Part shown: positions 20,533-62,789 of the stretch, piece after piece
Layout of the letters: every line of letters starts with the position of its first letter
Numbering within the stretch: the first letter of the stretch is position 1
NCBI RefSeq assembly: GCF_035918235.1
Contig: NZ_CP109485.1
Location: 8,146,001-8,210,000 of the forward strand
Source of the DNA: Streptomyces sp. NBC_01445
GTDB lineage: Bacteria > Actinomycetota > Actinomycetes > Streptomycetales > Streptomycetaceae
Direction: 5' to 3'
Length of the DNA: 64,000 nt
Program-made: the position numbers and the translations under genes
Notes under the pieces: generated by a model
Seen by the model: the letters and a program-made list of their open reading frames with translations, nothing else
Told to the model about the DNA's origin: nothing
The model's database searches: none

Positions 20533-20624
20533 CAGCCACTGTTCCCGGCGGTGCGGTGGGTCGCGGGGCGTGCAGTGCGGGCGGTCGCTTCTGCGCCGTT
20601 TCGACCGTTGTCAGACCAAGGACC

Positions 20625-20630
20625 TAGTCT
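20625..20630 (+). promoter_or_regulatory. -10 element giving a leaderless start for the kleisin-like gene
   Basis: TAGTCT matches the -10 consensus and ends 7 bases before the GTG at 20638, so transcription would begin at or next to the start codon. No ribosome site precedes this GTG, which also fits a leaderless mRNA. The -35 region (TTCGAC at 20600-20605) is weak. Confidence 0.45.
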
Positions 20631-20637
20631 GTGCTCC

Positions 20638-22164
20638 GTGACTTCGCCTGCCACCACGGAATCCGTTCCGCCCCAGCTCAGCGCGGGGCCGCGGCCCGCA
20701 CCGGGCCCGGCCGCCGACGAAGGGCTCGCGCGCCGCCTTCGCGCGCTCGCCTGCACCGCGCCGCTGCACGACCTCGACGTGCGCAAGGCCAATCTCGCGG
20801 GCGAGTACTCCGGATACGGCATGGCCGAGGTGGCGCTCTCCGCCATCGACCTCGTCACACTCAACATGGACTTCGACACGGGCGCCGACCACGAGCAGAT
20901 AGTGGCCAGGCTCATCCCCCGAGTCGGCGCACAGGCCCCGCAGCGCCCCGCCGCCGAGCACGAGCGCGTGGCCCGCTGGGTCCTGGAGAACCTGATCAAC
21001 GTCGGCAGCGTCGACCGCGGCTTCCGCGCCGTGTACGGCACGTTCGCGCCCGACGGCTCCTATGTCCGCAGGGACTACGACTTCAAGCTGATCGAGGAAG
21101 TCGCCGGCTACGGGGGCAGCGTCTACCTCCGCACCACCGACGAAGCGGTCAACGTCCTAGTGGGCGCCCTCGACACCGACGTCACCAGCGCCCAGATCGC
21201 CGCCGAGGTGAAGCTGGAGGTGCTGATCAACCGCGGCCGTCTCGCCGACGCCCAGCTCGCCGCCGAGCAGGCCAGGTACCGGACGGTGCAGTACTCCGAG
21301 ACCCTCCGAAGGGCCCTGGACGCGACCCGGAGGAACGTCCGCGCGGTGGACTGGCTGAACGCCGTCCCGGACATGATCGCCGAGGCGCTCGACCACGTCG
21401 CCGACCGGTACCGCCACGAGAACGCGATCCTCACGAACATCCGCAAGGCCCGAGACGAGTCCGAGGACCCCGAGCACAAGCGGCGCGCCGCCGAGCTCGT
21501 CGACATCGTCAAGGACTGCATCCGCCGGCACACACAGCTCCAGTCCCGCCTCCTCGAAGCGGGTCCCCTGTTCCGCGCCGAGCAGGACCGGCAGGCCTTC
21601 GCCGCCCCGTCCGCGCGCACGGGCCTCGATCTGTACGGGCAGCTCGTCGCGCCCCTGCTGCCGCTGCCGGTCGAGCAGGCGAGCCGCGTCACCGACGCGT
21701 TCTTCGCGCGCGGGACGGGCATGCGCACGCCCGTGTCCGTACGGGTCGGGGACCTGATCGACATACTGCTGACGCCGCCCCAGGAGCGGGAGCACCTCGG
21801 CATCGAGATGCCCGAGCCCGACCTGATCGCGACGCCCGACGACAGCCGGTTCAGCGAGGAGCAGCTGGCGAGCGCCATGGAGCTGCTCGACCTTCCCTCC
21901 GACGCGCCGCGCCGGCTCTCCGGACTGCTCGCCGAGGCGCGCCGCCGCGACCCCGAACTGCCTTATCTGGTCGCCCTGCTGTCCGTCCACGCGGCCAGCC
22001 CGCCGGTCGGCACGGCCTACCGGCAGGGCGAGGAGAAGCTGCTGTTCGCCGTGGACGACGGCACCGAGCTCGACGACCCGGAGTTCGGCGGCGCCGACCT
22101 CATCGTCGGCACGGCCCTCCTGGACGCCGCGGGCATGGCGGCCGACCGGACGGAGGCCGCGTAG
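20638..22164 (+). CDS. Kleisin-like (MukF/JetA-type) subunit of an SMC operon
   Basis: A 508-residue soluble protein, first gene of a three-gene operon. After a proline-rich N-terminus, residues about 47-110 form a compact helical domain containing SGYGMAEVALSAIDLVTLNM. Strands such as FKLIEEVAGYGGSVYLRTTDEA follow, as in a winged-helix domain. A long charged helical section (QARYRTVQYSETLRRALDAT near residue 213 and RHTQLQSRLLEAGPLFRAEQ near 300) is likely the coiled-coil arm of a kleisin. The overall plan and first position match MukF, MksF and JetA. The family call rests on architecture and context; no fold search was possible. It does not overlap its neighbours; the next gene starts 94 bases on. 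Confidence 0.65.
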   Translation: MTSPATTESVPPQLSAGPRPAPGPAADEGLARRLRALACTAPLHDLDVRKANLAGEYSGYGMAEVALSAIDLVTLNMDFDTGADHEQIVARLIPRVGAQAPQRPAAEHERVARWVLENLINVGSVDRGFRAVYGTFAPDGSYVRRDYDFKLIEEVAGYGGSVYLRTTDEAVNVLVGALDTDVTSAQIAAEVKLEVLINRGRLADAQLAAEQARYRTVQYSETLRRALDATRRNVRAVDWLNAVPDMIAEALDHVADRYRHENAILTNIRKARDESEDPEHKRRAAELVDIVKDCIRRHTQLQSRLLEAGPLFRAEQDRQAFAAPSARTGLDLYGQLVAPLLPLPVEQASRVTDAFFARGTGMRTPVSVRVGDLIDILLTPPQEREHLGIEMPEPDLIATPDDSRFSEEQLASAMELLDLPSDAPRRLSGLLAEARRRDPELPYLVALLSVHAASPPVGTAYRQGEEKLLFAVDDGTELDDPEFGGADLIVGTALLDAAGMAADRTEAA

Positions 22165-22258
22165 TGCCGATCGCATCGCACCGTGCCTCACCGCCGCGCG
22201 TCGCTGATACCGACGTCCACCCGAGCCTCGCCGTAGACCCGACCAAGGAGCACCAGCC

Positions 22259-23152
22259 GTGACCGATCACCCCGCAGAGCACGCCGCGTGGGGCGAGGCG
22301 GAGCCCTCGGAGGCTCCGGCGGCCGGCGCGCCCGTCACTCCGGCCGACGCCGCCGACGCGGCCCGCCTCGTGGCCTTCGGCCTCCAGCCCAAGCTGCAGC
22401 CCGCCCGCGACCAGGAGTACGCCGAGCTGCTGCGCCGCTACCGCGAGGACCCGCCGTTCGCGCGGCTCGCCGACGCCGTCGCCGCCGGGCTCGGCCTCGT
22501 CGTCCTGGAGGTCTCCACGCGCGCGGGGATGGCCGTGACCGCCGCGGAGGACTCCGTATTCGCCGTCCGGATGGGCGACTACGCGCGCCGTACCTCCGCC
22601 GACGGCAGCGACCGCTTCCTGCACGGCCTCGCGCACCTCGCCGTCGCCGCGATGGCGTTCCCGCGCCCCGAGGACCTCGCCGACGACGGCTACATCGGCC
22701 GCGTCACGGTCAACGGCGTGGACGCCTTCGTCCGCCAGGCCTGTCGCCGCCTGGAGGAGCGCGCCGAGGAGCGGGGCGAGAACACGGACCCGGTCTCCGA
22801 CGCCCCGGGCCTCGAGGCCGCGTGGCGCATCTGGGCCAGGCGCAGCTCGACCGGCGCGACGAAGGACGCGCGCCGCCTCGCCGGATCCACCACCGGCATC
22901 GTCGCCAAGGCCGTCGCGTTCCTCACCGACTCCGGGTTCCTGCAGAGAACGGGCGACGACTCGGGCGGCACCTACCGCACCACGGCCCGCTACCAGCTCC
23001 AGGTCCGCGACCTGGCCGGCACCGCCGCCCTCTCCGAGCTGGCGGACCTCGGCATCGTGCCCGTCACGGACGGCTCCGCGAGCCTCCTGCCGCCCGCGGA
23101 CGAGGACGACGGGGAGCTCGTGGCCGACGCGGGACTCCCGTTCCACTCCTGA
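22259..23152 (+). CDS. KITE-like (MukE/JetB-type) subunit
   Basis: A 297-residue soluble protein that I do not recognise by sequence alone. It starts at GTG 22259 with AAGGAG 8 bases upstream. The middle holds alpha/beta segments resembling tandem winged helices: YAELLRRYREDPPFARLADAVA, then VLEVSTRAGMAVTAAEDSVFAV, and later GIVAKAVAFLTDSGFLQRTG followed by a beta hairpin (GTYRTTARYQLQVRDL). Two winged helices are what a KITE subunit (MukE, MksE, JetB) has. Its size and its place between the kleisin-like and SMC genes support that role, binding the kleisin near the ATPase heads. Confidence 0.6.
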   Translation: MTDHPAEHAAWGEAEPSEAPAAGAPVTPADAADAARLVAFGLQPKLQPARDQEYAELLRRYREDPPFARLADAVAAGLGLVVLEVSTRAGMAVTAAEDSVFAVRMGDYARRTSADGSDRFLHGLAHLAVAAMAFPRPEDLADDGYIGRVTVNGVDAFVRQACRRLEERAEERGENTDPVSDAPGLEAAWRIWARRSSTGATKDARRLAGSTTGIVAKAVAFLTDSGFLQRTGDDSGGTYRTTARYQLQVRDLAGTAALSELADLGIVPVTDGSASLLPPADEDDGELVADAGLPFHS

Positions 23153-23218
23153 CCGGCCACGCATCACCGCCCCACGACGTCCCGCCTCACCGACTTACTA
23201 CGACGAGAGTCCGCCGCC

Positions 23219-26200
23219 ATGTACGAGCTGTCCCGGATTCGCCTCTACTCCATCGGGCCCGCCGGTGCGCGCTACGCCGACACCGTCCTGGACCTGCGGG
23301 GCGTCGGCGAGCCCGTGCCCGACCCCGCCCCCACCCAGGCGGAGTTCTTCGAGGACGAGCCCGTCGGGCCGCCGCGGCGGCCGGCGCCCGCGGGCGTGCT
23401 CTTCCTGGAGAACGGCGGCGGCAAGTCGGTCCTCCTCAAGCTGATCTTCTCCGTGATGCTGCCGGGCCACCGGAACACGCTCGGCGGCGCCAGCTCCGGC
23501 GTGCTGCGCAAGTTCCTGCTCGCCGACGACTGCGGGCACGTGGCCCTGGAGTGGCAGCACACCCTCACGGGCGAGTGCGTCGTCGTCGGCAAGGTCAGCG
23601 AGTGGCGGGGGCGGCAGGTCTCGAACGACCCGCGCAAGTTCGCCGAGGCCTGGTACTCGCTGCGGCCCGGGCCCGGCATGAGCCTGGACTCGCTGCCCGT
23701 CGCCGAGTCCTCCGCCGTACGGTCCTCGGCCGAGGGCGTCTCGGGCGCGCAGGGACGGCGGCGCACCATGAAGGGCTTCCGGGACGCACTGACCGACGCG
23801 GGCAAGGCGTACCCGCACCTCGAAGTGCACTGGGAAGAGATCCACGACCGGTGGAACGAGCACCTGGGCGAACTCGGCCTCGACCCCGAACTCTTCCGCT
23901 ACCAGCGGGAGATGAACGCGGACGAGGGTGAGGCCGCCGGCCTCTTCGCCGTCAAGAAGGACTCCGACTTCACCGACCTGCTCCTGCGCGCCGTCACCGA
24001 CACCCGGGACACGGACGGGCTGGCCGACCTGGTCAGCGGGTTCGGCAACAAGCTGGGGCGGCGCGCCGAGCTGATCGCCGAACGCGAGTTCACCGCCGGC
24101 TCCGTGGACCTCCTCGGCCGCATCGTGGACGCCGCGGACACCCGGGCACGCGCGCGTGACGTGCACGCCGGAGCCGAGCGCCGCACCCGCACCCTGGCCC
24201 GCAGGCTCGCCGCCCGTGCCGCCCTGGAGCGCGGCCGTGCCGCCGACCTCGCCCAGCAGGTCACCGCCGCCGCGCACACCGTCGGCGAGGCGGAGCAGGC
24301 CCGCGGCCGCAGCGCCCTGATCGCTTCCGAACTGGCATACCGGCATGCCTCGTTGGCGCTCGCCGGAGCCGAGAAGGCCGCCGCAGCGCAGAAGCGTGAG
24401 CTGGCCGACGCGCGCACCCTGCACGCTGCCTGGCAGGCCGCCGAGGCCGTCCTGCGCCACCGCGCCGCCGCCGACCGCTCCGCGCGCGTGGCCGTCGCCA
24501 TCCGCGAGGCCGAGCGGGACGCCGCCCCGGCCCTCGCCGCCCGCGCCAAGGCCGCCGCCGACCTCGTACGCGCCCTGCACGGAGCCGCCGAGAGTGCCGA
24601 GGAGCTGGCCAACGAGGGCGAGGAGCGCTCCGCCGCGCTCCAGGAGGCGGGCGAGACCGCTCACCGCGACGCGACTGTCGCCGCCACGGAGGCGCAGCGC
24701 GCCCGCAGCGAGGTCGGGCACCTGCGGCAGCGGCTCTCCGAGGTCGAACAGGAGACCGCCGAGGCGGTACGGGCCGGCTGGCTCGACGACACGGCGCCCG
24801 ACGCCGACCCCGCGCGCGCGGCGCTCGCCGCGAGCGACGCCGAGAAGACCACGGTCGCCGCCTGGGACACGGCGCGTGACGCCGCACGGCGCGCGAACGA
24901 GCACGCACGGGAGACGGCGGGCGCCGAGGCCCGGGCCGAACTCACCGCGGCCCGCGCCGCGGATGCCGCCACGGCCGCCGAGAACGCGTACGGGGCCGAG
25001 CACCGCGCCGCCGGTTCCCTCGCGCGCGAAGAGCGCGTCGCGGAGCTGCTCGGACTGTCCGGGGTCCCCGGGATCCCCGCCGCAGGGGTGCCCGCGCCTC
25101 GGGGCGCGATGGCCGACGGAGCCGCGACCCGCCACGCGCGCGTGGCGACCGTCACCCGCGACCTCGGCGAAACCCCGCTCACGGCCGAGGAGTTGGACCG
25201 CGCGGCCGACGACCTCAAGGCGCTGCTCGACGACGGCGTCGCCTCCGCCGAACGCCAGCTCTTCGACCTGCGCACGGCCGCGGCCGACGACGCCCGCATC
25301 CTCGGCGCGCTCGGTGACGGCGGGCTCCTGCCGCCGGGACCCGACGTCCTCGCCACCGTCGAGTTCCTCGGCGAGCACGGCATCCCCGCCCTGCCCGGCT
25401 GGCGCTATCTCGCGCAGGCCGTCGACCCCGTGGACCACGCGCGCGTGCTCGCCGCACGCCCCGAGCTCGTCGACGGCGTCGTCATCACCGACCCCGACAC
25501 GCACGCCCGGGCCCGCGAGGCACTCGCCGGCGCCGCCCTGCTGCCCCGCTCCGCCGTCGCCGTCGGCACGGCGGCCGCCCTGCTCGCCCCGACACCCCAC
25601 GAGGAGACCGGCGACAGCGGCGTCTTCCTCGTGCCGCCGAACCCGGCGATGCACGACGAGCACGCCGCCGACGAGGAGCGGCAGGCGCTGCGCACGCGCG
25701 CGACCGAGCGCGACGAGGAGATCCGCGCCCTGGCCGCCCGGCTCTCCAAGGACCGGGAGCTCGCCGCCCGTATCGGCTCCTGGCGCACCGGCTGCCCGGA
25801 CGGACGCCTCGCCGAACTGGCCGCCGCCGCACAGGAGGCACGCGCCTTCGCCGACGAGACCGAGGCCGAGCTCGCCGAGGCCCGCACTGTCCGCGCCGAG
25901 GCCGAAGAGACCGCGGTCGAGGCGACCCGCGTACGCGACGAGCGGCAGGACGCGGCCCAGCGCGCGCGGCGCGTCGCCGACGCCCTCGCGGGACTCGCGT
26001 TCCGGCTGCGCGAGCGCGCCGGCTGGCAGGTCAAGGTGCGCGAACTCGCCGACGAGGCCGTCGAGTCGGAGGCACGCGCCCAGACCTGCCTGGAGCGCGC
26101 CCGTTCCGCCGACGAGGACCGCAGGGCGGCACAGCGCGCAGCCGACGACGCCCGCCGAACCGCCCGTGCCCTGCGCGCCGAACGCGCGGAGATCGCCGGC

Positions 26201-27910
26201 GCCCCCGACGACGTACCGGCGGACCCCGAGCAGCCCTCCCCTCAGACGCCGAAGCCGTCGCTGCCCGCGCTGCGCGAGGCGTACCGCGCGGCCTCCCAGG
26301 TCTACGAGAAAGTCGGCGTCGGCGCCGACCTGCGCGCCGAGCAGGCCCGCGCGGAGAGCGACGAGAGCGCCGCTCTCGCCGAGCTCGACCGGCTCAGTAA
26401 CAAGGTCCGCACCCGCGCGGCCCAGCTCCTGGAGTCCCCGGACGGCTCCGACGGACCGTCACGGCAGGCCGCCGCGGCCCGCGCCGACGAGCTGGTTCAG
26501 CTCCTGGAGGCCCGCGTCTCCACCGCGAGCGAGCAGCTCGGACGCCTGCGCGGCGAGGCCGAGCGGCACGCACCCGAGGACGGCGACGACGCCCACACCG
26601 AGCTGCCCGACGACCTCGTCCCCACCGGCGCCGAGCACGCCCAGACGCTCCTGCGCACCGCCACGGGCGAACTCGCCGCGCGCACCGAGGCGTTGACCGT
26701 GGCCCGCGCCGCCCACAGCGAACTCCTCGACGCCCACCGCGCCGCCGAGGACGCGACCGGCGGCTTCGAGGAGACCGCAGCGCTCCTCAAGGACCTGCTG
26801 CGCGAGCATCCCGACCGGCACGAGAGCGAGCAGGACGAGCCCGAGCCCTATCCCGGCACCCTCGAAGAGGCCCGGCACGCGGCGGCCGAGGCCCGACGCT
26901 CCCTGCGCGGCTGCGCCGCCGACCTGTCCGCCGCCGAGGCCGCCGTGCGCGAGGCGAGCGACATCCTCGTACGGCACGCGAACGCCACCCGCTACGAGCA
27001 GGTGCGCACGCCGGCCCGGCAACAGATCCGCGAGCTGCCCGCCTCGGCGCTGCCCGAGCACGCGCAGAAGTGGGCGGACGCGTTCGCGCCCCGGCTGCGC
27101 GTACTGACCGACGAGCTGGAGCAGTTGGAGCGCAACCGCGACTCGATCGTGGACCGGCTGCGCGGGCTCGTCGAGTCGGCGCTCGCCACACTGCGGTCCG
27201 CCCAGCGCCTGTCCCGCCTCCCGGAAGGGCTCGGCGAGTGGTCGGGCCAGGAGTTCGTGCGCATCCGCTTCGAGGAGCCCGACCAGGCGACCCTCGTGGA
27301 GCGGCTCGGCGAGGTCGTCGACGAGGCGACCCGCGCCGCCGTCAAGAAAAACTCCGACCTGCGCCGCGACGGCATGTCCCTGCTCCTGCGCGGTGTCGGC
27401 GCGGCGCTCCAGCCCAAGGGCATCGCCGTGGAGATCCTCAAGCCGGACGCCGTGCTGCGCGCCGAGCGGGTCCCCGTCGGACAGATGGGCGACGTGTTCT
27501 CCGGCGGCCAGCTCCTCACCGCGGCCATCGCCCTGTACTGCACGATGGCCGCCCTGCGCTCGAACGACCGGGGCCGCGACAAGCACCGGCACGCGGGCAC
27601 GCTGTTCCTCGACAACCCGATCGGCCGCGCCAACGCCACGTACCTGCTCGAACTCCAGCGGGCCGTGTCGGACGCGCTCGGTGTGCAGCTCCTGTACACC
27701 ACCGGCCTGTTCGACACGACGGCACTCGCCGAGTTCCCGCTGGTCATCAGGCTGCGCAACGACGCGGACCTCAGGGCCGGGCTGAAGTACATCAGCGTCG
27801 AGGAGCACCTGCGGCCGGGCCTGCCGCAGCAGGACCCGGCCGAGGAGACCGTGCACGGAGAGATCACGGCAACGCGCATGTACAAGCGCCCCGCGAACCA
27901 GCCCGGTTAG
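23219..27910 (+). CDS. SMC/MukB-like coiled-coil ATPase
   Basis: A 1563-residue SMC-type ATPase, the size class of MukB/MksB/JetC. The N-terminal head begins YELSRIRLYSIGPAGARYAD and has the P-loop VLFLENGGGKSVLL with Lys69. About residues 290-685 and 820-1330 are alanine/glutamate/arginine-rich coiled coil. Between them, about 690-820, lies a globular alpha/beta segment (GIPALPGWRYLAQAV, LVDGVVITDP) in the hinge position. The C-terminal head has the ABC signature DVFSGGQLLTAAIALYC (Ser1428) and Walker B GTLFLDNPIGRAN, where Asn1466 replaces the usual catalytic glutamate. The ATG follows the KITE-like gene by 66 bases. Expected role is DNA loop extrusion or binding, either chromosomal or against invading DNA. 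Confidence 0.85.
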   Translation: MYELSRIRLYSIGPAGARYADTVLDLRGVGEPVPDPAPTQAEFFEDEPVGPPRRPAPAGVLFLENGGGKSVLLKLIFSVMLPGHRNTLGGASSGVLRKFLLADDCGHVALEWQHTLTGECVVVGKVSEWRGRQVSNDPRKFAEAWYSLRPGPGMSLDSLPVAESSAVRSSAEGVSGAQGRRRTMKGFRDALTDAGKAYPHLEVHWEEIHDRWNEHLGELGLDPELFRYQREMNADEGEAAGLFAVKKDSDFTDLLLRAVTDTRDTDGLADLVSGFGNKLGRRAELIAEREFTAGSVDLLGRIVDAADTRARARDVHAGAERRTRTLARRLAARAALERGRAADLAQQVTAAAHTVGEAEQARGRSALIASELAYRHASLALAGAEKAAAAQKRELADARTLHAAWQAAEAVLRHRAAADRSARVAVAIREAERDAAPALAARAKAAADLVRALHGAAESAEELANEGEERSAALQEAGETAHRDATVAATEAQRARSEVGHLRQRLSEVEQETAEAVRAGWLDDTAPDADPARAALAASDAEKTTVAAWDTARDAARRANEHARETAGAEARAELTAARAADAATAAENAYGAEHRAAGSLAREERVAELLGLSGVPGIPAAGVPAPRGAMADGAATRHARVATVTRDLGETPLTAEELDRAADDLKALLDDGVASAERQLFDLRTAAADDARILGALGDGGLLPPGPDVLATVEFLGEHGIPALPGWRYLAQAVDPVDHARVLAARPELVDGVVITDPDTHARAREALAGAALLPRSAVAVGTAAALLAPTPHEETGDSGVFLVPPNPAMHDEHAADEERQALRTRATERDEEIRALAARLSKDRELAARIGSWRTGCPDGRLAELAAAAQEARAFADETEAELAEARTVRAEAEETAVEATRVRDERQDAAQRARRVADALAGLAFRLRERAGWQVKVRELADEAVESEARAQTCLERARSADEDRRAAQRAADDARRTARALRAERAEIAGAPDDVPADPEQPSPQTPKPSLPALREAYRAASQVYEKVGVGADLRAEQARAESDESAALAELDRLSNKVRTRAAQLLESPDGSDGPSRQAAAARADELVQLLEARVSTASEQLGRLRGEAERHAPEDGDDAHTELPDDLVPTGAEHAQTLLRTATGELAARTEALTVARAAHSELLDAHRAAEDATGGFEETAALLKDLLREHPDRHESEQDEPEPYPGTLEEARHAAAEARRSLRGCAADLSAAEAAVREASDILVRHANATRYEQVRTPARQQIRELPASALPEHAQKWADAFAPRLRVLTDELEQLERNRDSIVDRLRGLVESALATLRSAQRLSRLPEGLGEWSGQEFVRIRFEEPDQATLVERLGEVVDEATRAAVKKNSDLRRDGMSLLLRGVGAALQPKGIAVEILKPDAVLRAERVPVGQMGDVFSGGQLLTAAIALYCTMAALRSNDRGRDKHRHAGTLFLDNPIGRANATYLLELQRAVSDALGVQLLYTTGLFDTTALAEFPLVIRLRNDADLRAGLKYISVEEHLRPGLPQQDPAEETVHGEITATRMYKRPANQPG

Positions 27911-61808: not shown

Positions 61809-61886
61809 CCGAACCCGGTTCCCCCGCCGTTGTCAGTGCCCCCGATTACTCTGAGTGAGCATTGACTACAGCTCTCAGGGGGAACC

Positions 61887-62789
61887 ATGGCGCACACCCA
61901 GAACACCCAGCACGCCGGCATGCGACGCGTCCTGCGCCGTGAAGTCGCGGGCATCATCGGCCTGCTCGCCGACGAACGCGACTTCACGGCAATGCGGAGC
62001 TACCGCACCTTCGCCTTCGACGACCACGACACGTACCTCCAGCAGGTGGAGAACCTCCTCCAGACCCTCGCCGCGCAGGGCGGACACACCACCGTTGCCC
62101 TCTTCGACCCCGAGGAGTACGCGGAGTTCTGCGCCGAGACCGGCCTCGAACCGGACACCCCCGCCAGCCGCACCCGCTTCACCGCCGAACTCGCCGTCAT
62201 GGGCACCACCGTCCCTTACGAGGGACAGCCCCTGGCCGACCTCCTGCCCGACCTGGTCGACGAGGCCGTCCGCCAGGCCACCTGGGAGTACGCCTCGTCC
62301 GTCCTCGCCCGGATCGGACCGTGCGGCGCCTGCGGCCGGGACATCGGAAGGGACGCCTTCGCCCGCGCCTCGCACCTCCTGACGCGGGTCCTAGACACGG
62401 CAGGCACCGGCGCCCACCACCTCGTGTGCAGCATTCCCACCGACGCGGAATCGGTGCTGTCGGTACTCCACGTCGACCGCTGCACCGAGGACAGCACACG
62501 ACTCGACGAGAAGGAGGCGCTCGAGTTCACCACGGTCCTCGCACTCGGCATCGCCACGGCAAGCCCGGGCGGCCTGGTCATGCGCACCACTGCCCCGGAC
62601 ACGGACGACCGCGTCCAAGGCTGGCGCCTGCGCGACGAACGCCTGCTACCGCTCACCGCGGCAGAAGTCTTCGACGCCTACTGCACCGACGCCCAGTCCG
62701 GCGACCTCGTCGCACCCGAGTCCGGCGTCGACTACTGCGCGGCACCCGATCTCGGGGACACCGGCCCCGAGGTCGGGCACACCCACTGA
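61887..62789 (+). CDS. Hypothetical protein, probably lineage-specific
   Basis: A 300-residue soluble protein that I do not recognise. The first 65 residues look helical (MRRVLRREVAGIIGLLADERDF, then DTYLQQVENLLQTLAAQ). A central part contains CGACGRDIGRDAF, a CxxC that might bind metal. The C-terminal half has acidic and alanine-rich stretches and no membrane segment. The start ATG has a GGGGGAACC leader. The gene is closed by a strong hairpin and follows the CoA ligase by 78 bases. Confidence 0.75.
   Translation: MAHTQNTQHAGMRRVLRREVAGIIGLLADERDFTAMRSYRTFAFDDHDTYLQQVENLLQTLAAQGGHTTVALFDPEEYAEFCAETGLEPDTPASRTRFTAELAVMGTTVPYEGQPLADLLPDLVDEAVRQATWEYASSVLARIGPCGACGRDIGRDAFARASHLLTRVLDTAGTGAHHLVCSIPTDAESVLSVLHVDRCTEDSTRLDEKEALEFTTVLALGIATASPGGLVMRTTAPDTDDRVQGWRLRDERLLPLTAAEVFDAYCTDAQSGDLVAPESGVDYCAAPDLGDTGPEVGHTH

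Follow-up and report, generated by a model that had tools for sequence, protein, structure and literature searches.

The jetABC operon of Streptomyces sp. NBC_01445 lies in the stretch of DNA analysed here, a window of 64,000 nucleotides (C1:8146001-8210000 of the 11.47 Mb genome), and encodes a kleisin subunit, a KITE subunit and an ATPase of the structural maintenance of chromosomes (SMC) type. On balance, we consider the operon to encode a JetABC complex of type III Wadjet descent that lacks the nuclease and has been kept as an MksBEF-like condensin and core genome-maintenance machine of the Streptomycetaceae. We favour this reading because of the type III profile matches, the absence of JetD, a near-universal core copy, the nesting of its clade among JetD-bearing relatives, low ratios of nonsynonymous to synonymous substitution (dN/dS), a conserved promoter, the presence of a canonical SMC and the precedent of MksBEF. 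It is the locus that is unusual, being JetD-less and near-fixed, and not the protein family.

JetA matches the PADLOC type III Wadjet profile JetA3 (PDLC00567) at E 1e-187 and JetC matches JetC3 (PDLC00588) at E 0 with 1388 bits, and because of these two matches the family is one already known. JetB matches none of the PADLOC models; its homologue in type III operons with JetD is the second gene, at 50-51% across some 250 amino acids in loci L032 and L033 (tblastn). By sequence, then, the subunits belong to type III Wadjet: JetA3, JetC3 and a KITE protein between A and C are present, and JetD as the fourth gene is absent. The preliminary description of this DNA had entertained a new family, to be given up if the proteins matched profiles of a known one, and the JetA3 and JetC3 matches go against it. 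Of its proposal of an uncharacterised condensin or defence branch, the condensin branch probably stands but the placement outside known families does not. No Pfam Muk family matched the window's Jet proteins at E values up to 1, NCBIfam gave no match of note, MukE is not among the 50 VIA-align matches listed for JetB, and PDB sequence searches were uninformative, returning designed proteins, a penicillin-binding protein at E 0.97 and myoglobin. The genome also encodes a canonical SMC, with SMC_prok_B (TIGR02168) over its cut-off at C1:3739500-3743318; at E 1e-5 that model has four matches in the genome, none of them at the jetC locus.

The distribution of the operon was followed with JetA at a threshold of E 1e-10 in a genus sample of 121 genomes and a family sample of 150, eight genomes being in both (263 in all), and matches were found in 118 and 148 of them, respectively. 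The core jetABC copy is present in 257 of the 263 Streptomycetaceae genomes and in 16 of 17 genera, at 74-100% identity. Three of the six genomes without it (G050, G073, G079, G188, G251 and G129) are incomplete (71-82%), and G129 is not counted as having it because its only JetA match is distant (E 2.4e-18). Divergent extra copies are patchy, with 11 (26-53%) in 10 of the 121 genus genomes, so that the Streptomycetaceae hold both states, a near-fixed JetD-less core and patchy JetD-bearing copies. In one genome of the latter kind, G090, the same divergent JetABC with JetD3 is found near both chromosome ends (C1:8876 and C1:9228837), probably within terminal repeats. A class sample gave JetA matches in 51 of 345 genomes, 33 of them Streptomyces and 18 Frankiaceae; carriage in the Frankiaceae is not universal (G279, G346 and G404 have no match). 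JetA matched no phage records and five plasmid records, all below 60% identity.

JetD was not found with either model in the whole genome: JetD_C (PF09983), for which a positive control matched in two genomes, gave no match at E values up to 1 (the window was not searched for TOPRIM domains generally), and JetD3 (PDLC00594) gave none at E 1e-5, by which a JetD elsewhere in the genome is rejected. The kleisin-KITE-SMC operon without JetD that had been described for the window is thus upheld, and the absence extends to the genome. That JetD3 can pick up a type III JetD is shown by nine divergent Streptomyces loci, in which it matches the gene after jetC (E 4.4e-123 to 9.6e-51). By tblastn, A, B and C occur without D in 21 of 21 core loci, from 20 family genomes and the window. 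No JetD3 match in the genus and family samples shares a contig with a core copy and lies within 300 kb of it; some matches in draft genomes are on other contigs. Twelve of the 121 genus genomes have JetD3 matches, 10 of them strong and beside divergent extra copies and two weak (G003, G012), as have 14 of the 150 family genomes, one weakly (G182); where a genus genome has a divergent extra JetA (10 genomes), JetD3 adjoins that copy in every case. A replacement fourth gene was rejected as far as tested, as the 21 core loci have only Jet genes in common with the JetD-less Frankiaceae loci compared (12 of 18 fetched), the commonest non-Jet neighbours being found at 13 and 12 of the 21 core loci and at none of the 12 Frankiaceae loci. 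The simple gene caller used in this comparison dropped JetA in one and JetB in seven of the 21 loci, in all of which tblastn recovers A, B and C. Residues that distinguish JetD-bearing from JetD-less copies fall at scattered positions only.

When 63 JetA proteins are placed in a tree, the 21 core rows group together (100/99), as do 18 JetD-less rows from Frankiaceae (100/100). Both clades are nested among the 24 rows of the JetD-bearing group, and from this topology the nuclease-free JetABC is taken to have descended from type III Wadjet. The tree program gave a warning about long branches in the JetD-bearing group, two rows of which, L093 and L096, bear that label because of a JetD match on another contig of the same genome. 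None of the 18 loci in the JetD-less Frankiaceae clade gave a D; seven of them (L079-L083, L087 and L091) end inside or just after jetC, which leaves 11 in which JetD is shown to be missing next to the gene. When the two JetD-less clades are made sisters, p-AU (approximately unbiased test) is 0.344, and 386 of 1000 bootstraps join them; one JetD loss and two are both compatible with this. In one genome, G556, a JetD-less copy (L089) occurs together with a JetD-bearing one (L085). All four genes are present in Amycolatopsis marina and Crossiella, and a plasmid of Rhodococcus has a copy (52% in JetA) whose fourth gene is annotated as a JetD-domain protein. The JetABC locus of Cellulomonas timonensis (L140, 10001-16746), with no JetD match in the 4.7 kb fetched after jetC and an ATPase-like open reading frame (ORF) next, is possibly another JetD loss.

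JetA is under purifying selection. Over 62 genus sequences, which give 1890 pairs and comprise the window and 61 loci that include the window's own copy, the median dN/dS is 0.115 and the largest 0.25, at a median dS of 0.48; L021 is listed with an in-frame TGA and only its best open stretch was used. For six Streptomyces the ratios are 0.153 for JetA, 0.138 for JetB and 0.211 for JetC. Five JetD-bearing pairs give 0.16-0.38, with one lower at 0.084, and because these values are similar, constraint alone separates no groups.

The region before jetA contains a promoter-like element laid out as TTGTCAG-N10-TAGTCT. The consensus of RecA-independent DNA-damage promoters is tTGTCRgtg - 8 nt - TannnT (PMC5656591); it has been named RecA-NDp, is the target of PafBC in mycobacteria (PMC6789036, PMC8223512) and precedes a UV-inducible gene of S. 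coelicolor (PMC5087735). TTGTCRG, TAnnnT and the spacing all fit at jetA. In the aligned upstream regions (59 sequences) conservation is confined to the last approximately 40 bases before the GTG, a start codon that is itself backed by conservation around it in aligned orthologues, and the jetA transcript is likely leaderless. Among 60 Streptomyces upstream regions, a set that leaves out L002 and L019, the strict site occurs in 40 and the relaxed site in 56, with shuffle means of 0.005 and 0.045, and neither site was found reversed or on the other strand. Of the 56 relaxed sites, 49 end 7 nucleotides before the start, and the four regions without one have TTGTCC in place of TTGTCR. The relaxed site is also found in 16 of 21 regions of the wider family sample. 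Across the genome the strict pattern occurs 59 times versus five for the reversed control, several of the 59 being duplicates that lie in repeated contig ends. For 30 of the 59 sites the genes that follow were read, and 10 chosen ones were given to Pfam, which identified RecA, NAD-dependent DNA ligase (ligA), the large subunit of exonuclease VII (xseA), ThyX, a DnaX-type clamp loader, a DEAD helicase, ribosomal protein S6, an HSP90-type ATPase and a SWIM protein; the tenth is an ATPase that by reading is RadA-like, and others of the 30 look by reading like transposases, a P450 or transporters. Together these patterns strongly suggest that jetABC is transcribed from a RecA-independent DNA-damage promoter of the RecA-NDp/PafBC type.

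The nucleotide-binding motifs of JetC (Table 1) do not set the operon apart. The preliminary description had taken the divergent LENGGGKS and LDNPIG as possible marks of a branch, an idea that is ruled out because JetD-bearing type III copies have both. LENGGGKS and LDNP are present in 21 of 21 core loci; in the JetD-bearing group LENGGGKS was found in 12 loci, LRNGGGKS in three more and LDNP in 20, the pattern search having missed the remaining JetD-bearing loci and being blind to a Walker B without a following P. Every JetC Walker B that the pattern caught is LDNP instead of LDE, with Asn for the catalytic Glu, whether or not JetD is present.

The three genes are real and intact. They are co-oriented on the + strand with the lengths of 508, 297 and 1563 residues first described, and their frames end where claimed; chance origin is excluded by the profile E-values and the orthologues in nearly all related genomes. 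The spacing is 94 nucleotides between jetA and jetB and 66 between jetB and jetC. The convergent, choline-dehydrogenase-like gene described as following 13 bases after jetC proves to be a GMC oxidoreductase at just that distance, and beyond it lie an amino acid permease and an aldehyde dehydrogenase. On the other side, before jetA, are a GntR/FCD regulator, a major facilitator superfamily transporter and a LamB/YcsF protein. Searches across the window found neither a tRNA nor an Rfam family. A second strict site of the RecA-NDp type is found in the window at 61830-61852 (+), 34 nucleotides before a 300-residue ORF (61887-62789) with no Pfam match at E 1e-5. Elsewhere in the genome, identical sites stand mirror-wise at C1 3327/133202 and 10300122/10429997 and at C2 3325/133200, which points to terminal inverted repeats no shorter than 133 kb, shared with the second contig, C2.

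Table 1 Features of the jetABC locus, in window coordinates
Feature	Position	Strand	Remarks
TTGTCAGACCAAGGACCTAGTCT, promoter-like element	20608-20630	+	fits RecA-independent DNA-damage promoter (RecA-NDp/PafBC); 7 nt before jetA GTG
jetA, kleisin subunit	20638-22164	+	508 aa, GTG start; PADLOC JetA3 PDLC00567
jetB, KITE subunit	22259-23152	+	297 aa, GTG start; homology to second gene of JetD-bearing operons
jetC, SMC ATPase	23219-27910	+	1563 aa, ATG start; PADLOC JetC3 PDLC00588
Walker A, LENGGGKS	23405-23428	+	JetC residues 63-70
ABC signature, FSGGQ	27497-27511	+	JetC residues 1427-1431
Walker B, LFLDNPIG	27602-27625	+	JetC residues 1462-1469; Asn at usual catalytic Glu position

Given a damage-inducible-looking promoter and a missing cutter, a defence machine may here have become a genome-maintenance machine. 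In Wadjet, JetABC works as a dimer of SMC dimers, detects circular DNA, probably through loop extrusion, and switches on JetD (PMC10586767). The MksBEF complex of P. aeruginosa has a part in organising the chromosome and is likely to have come about when JetD was lost (PMC10586767). The Streptomyces complex would use ATP to clamp DNA and extrude loops, as JetABC and MukBEF do, and without JetD the reeled-in DNA would stay uncut. It might then organise, pair or hold chromosomal DNA during damage or replication stress, working under damage control beside the canonical SMC. More tentatively, and with less than even confidence, we propose that Wadjet was domesticated in the ancestor of the Streptomycetaceae, and jointly or separately in the Frankiaceae, into an SMC complex that has no nuclease and belongs to the RecA-independent DNA-damage regulon; in these mycelial actinobacteria the complex would be a bacterial functional counterpart of Smc5/6 beside the canonical SMC. 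The likeness to Smc5/6 is a comparison from general knowledge.

The complex could instead still act against plasmids or phages, JetABC recognising small circular DNA and either relying on an effector encoded elsewhere or silencing the invader uncut. JetABC is after all the sensor part of Wadjet (PMC10586767), JetD-bearing relatives are found in the same genomes and on the Rhodococcus plasmid, and the promoter type is common to some JetD-bearing copies. JetD from another locus cannot serve in most genomes, however, because 109 of the 121 genus genomes have no JetD3, although no search was aimed at a different effector, and the core gene is near-fixed and single-copy in the family, unlike the patchy JetD-bearing copies. 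Near-fixation together with a DNA-damage-type promoter speaks against an ordinary mobile defence system, and we regard continued defence as unlikely. Decay into a functionless Wadjet remnant after the loss of JetD would account for the missing nuclease. Against it, the frames are full length, the ATPase motifs are intact in all 21 core loci and the core copy persists in 257 of the 263 genomes. The median dN/dS over the 62 JetA sequences is a constraint that already contradicts this explanation, which we regard as extremely improbable. One JetD-bearing copy, L035 (G057:C1:5294000-5309000), has its JetC split over two overlapping frames and therefore may be broken.

A nuclease-free housekeeping condensin might also be transcribed from an ordinary promoter, DNA damage playing no part. 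The TAnnnT part is a common form of the -10 element, transposase-like and metabolic genes are among those that follow the 30 sites read, jetA has ACC in place of the consensus letters gtg, and in S. venezuelae an initial search suggested a lack of conservation of the PafBC motif known from mycobacteria (PMC9380542). The fixed spacing of the sites to the start and their presence in 56 of 60 regions, the genome-wide excess over the reversed control and the occurrence of recA and other repair and replication genes after the sites all argue the other way, and we find an ordinary promoter decidedly unlikely. The lost gtg letters and the S. venezuelae remark nevertheless also weigh against the damage-regulated maintenance condensin that we prefer, as do several further observations. 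Five of the 21 regions in the wider family sample have no relaxed site, and the promoter fails to separate the two roles because it is present in relaxed form in 8 of 23 members of the JetD-bearing group and in 2 of 17 JetD-less Frankiaceae. Wadjet is enriched in Actinobacteria and towards the ends of Streptomyces chromosomes (PMC10482375); the core gene lies 0.49-3.44 Mb from the contig end in 15 long contigs. The structure models are weak: with pLDDT (predicted local distance difference test) of 60.7 for JetA and 64.9 for JetB, the first Foldseek matches are MukF (1t98/3euh, E 0.07) and MukE (3euh, E 0.02), and neither model has a match reaching E 0.001. On whether the first two proteins have winged helices, whose absence was the other condition for giving up the preliminary description, the models and their matches give a weak answer. 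The eight JetD-bearing copies with a damage-type promoter are L035, L036, L037, L039, L092, L093, L102 and L103, and plasmid defence itself may therefore be damage-inducible.

The literature covered, which was available in part and included few subscription papers, contained no description of a type III JetABC that lacks JetD and is either conserved in Streptomyces or linked to the PafBC regulon. In their available text, two papers on Streptomyces condensin do not use the word Wadjet (PMC13121528, PMC8410768) and a survey of actinobacterial defence does not use the term JetD (PMC10482375); the movement of SMC complexes between chromosome care and defence is treated as an open matter in PMC10586767. 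Our reading predicts an unstudied chromosome-maintenance complex in a major group of antibiotic producers, and it implies that JetA and JetC profile matches in Streptomyces need not equal plasmid defence.

Set beside known systems, the operon shares with the RecA-NDp/PafBC regulon an element upstream of jetA that fits the consensus (PMC5656591) and whose pattern also precedes recA in this genome; in the parts of the literature examined, no SMC or Wadjet operon is named as a member of that regulon. MksBEFG of Corynebacterium glutamicum is likewise an actinobacterial SMC-kleisin-KITE complex of the Wadjet kind, but it has the nuclease MksG and the Streptomyces operon has none. Like MksBEF and MukBEF, the operon encodes kleisin, KITE and SMC subunits without a nuclease, and MukF and MukE are the first, if weak, structural matches; unlike them, it has no Pfam Muk match and appears to descend from type III Wadjet. 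From type III Wadjet proper (JetA3-JetB-JetC3-JetD3) it differs in having no JetD beside it or in the genome and in being near-fixed instead of patchy, whereas the JetA and JetC profiles, the gene order A-B-C and the Walker motifs of JetD-bearing copies are common to both.

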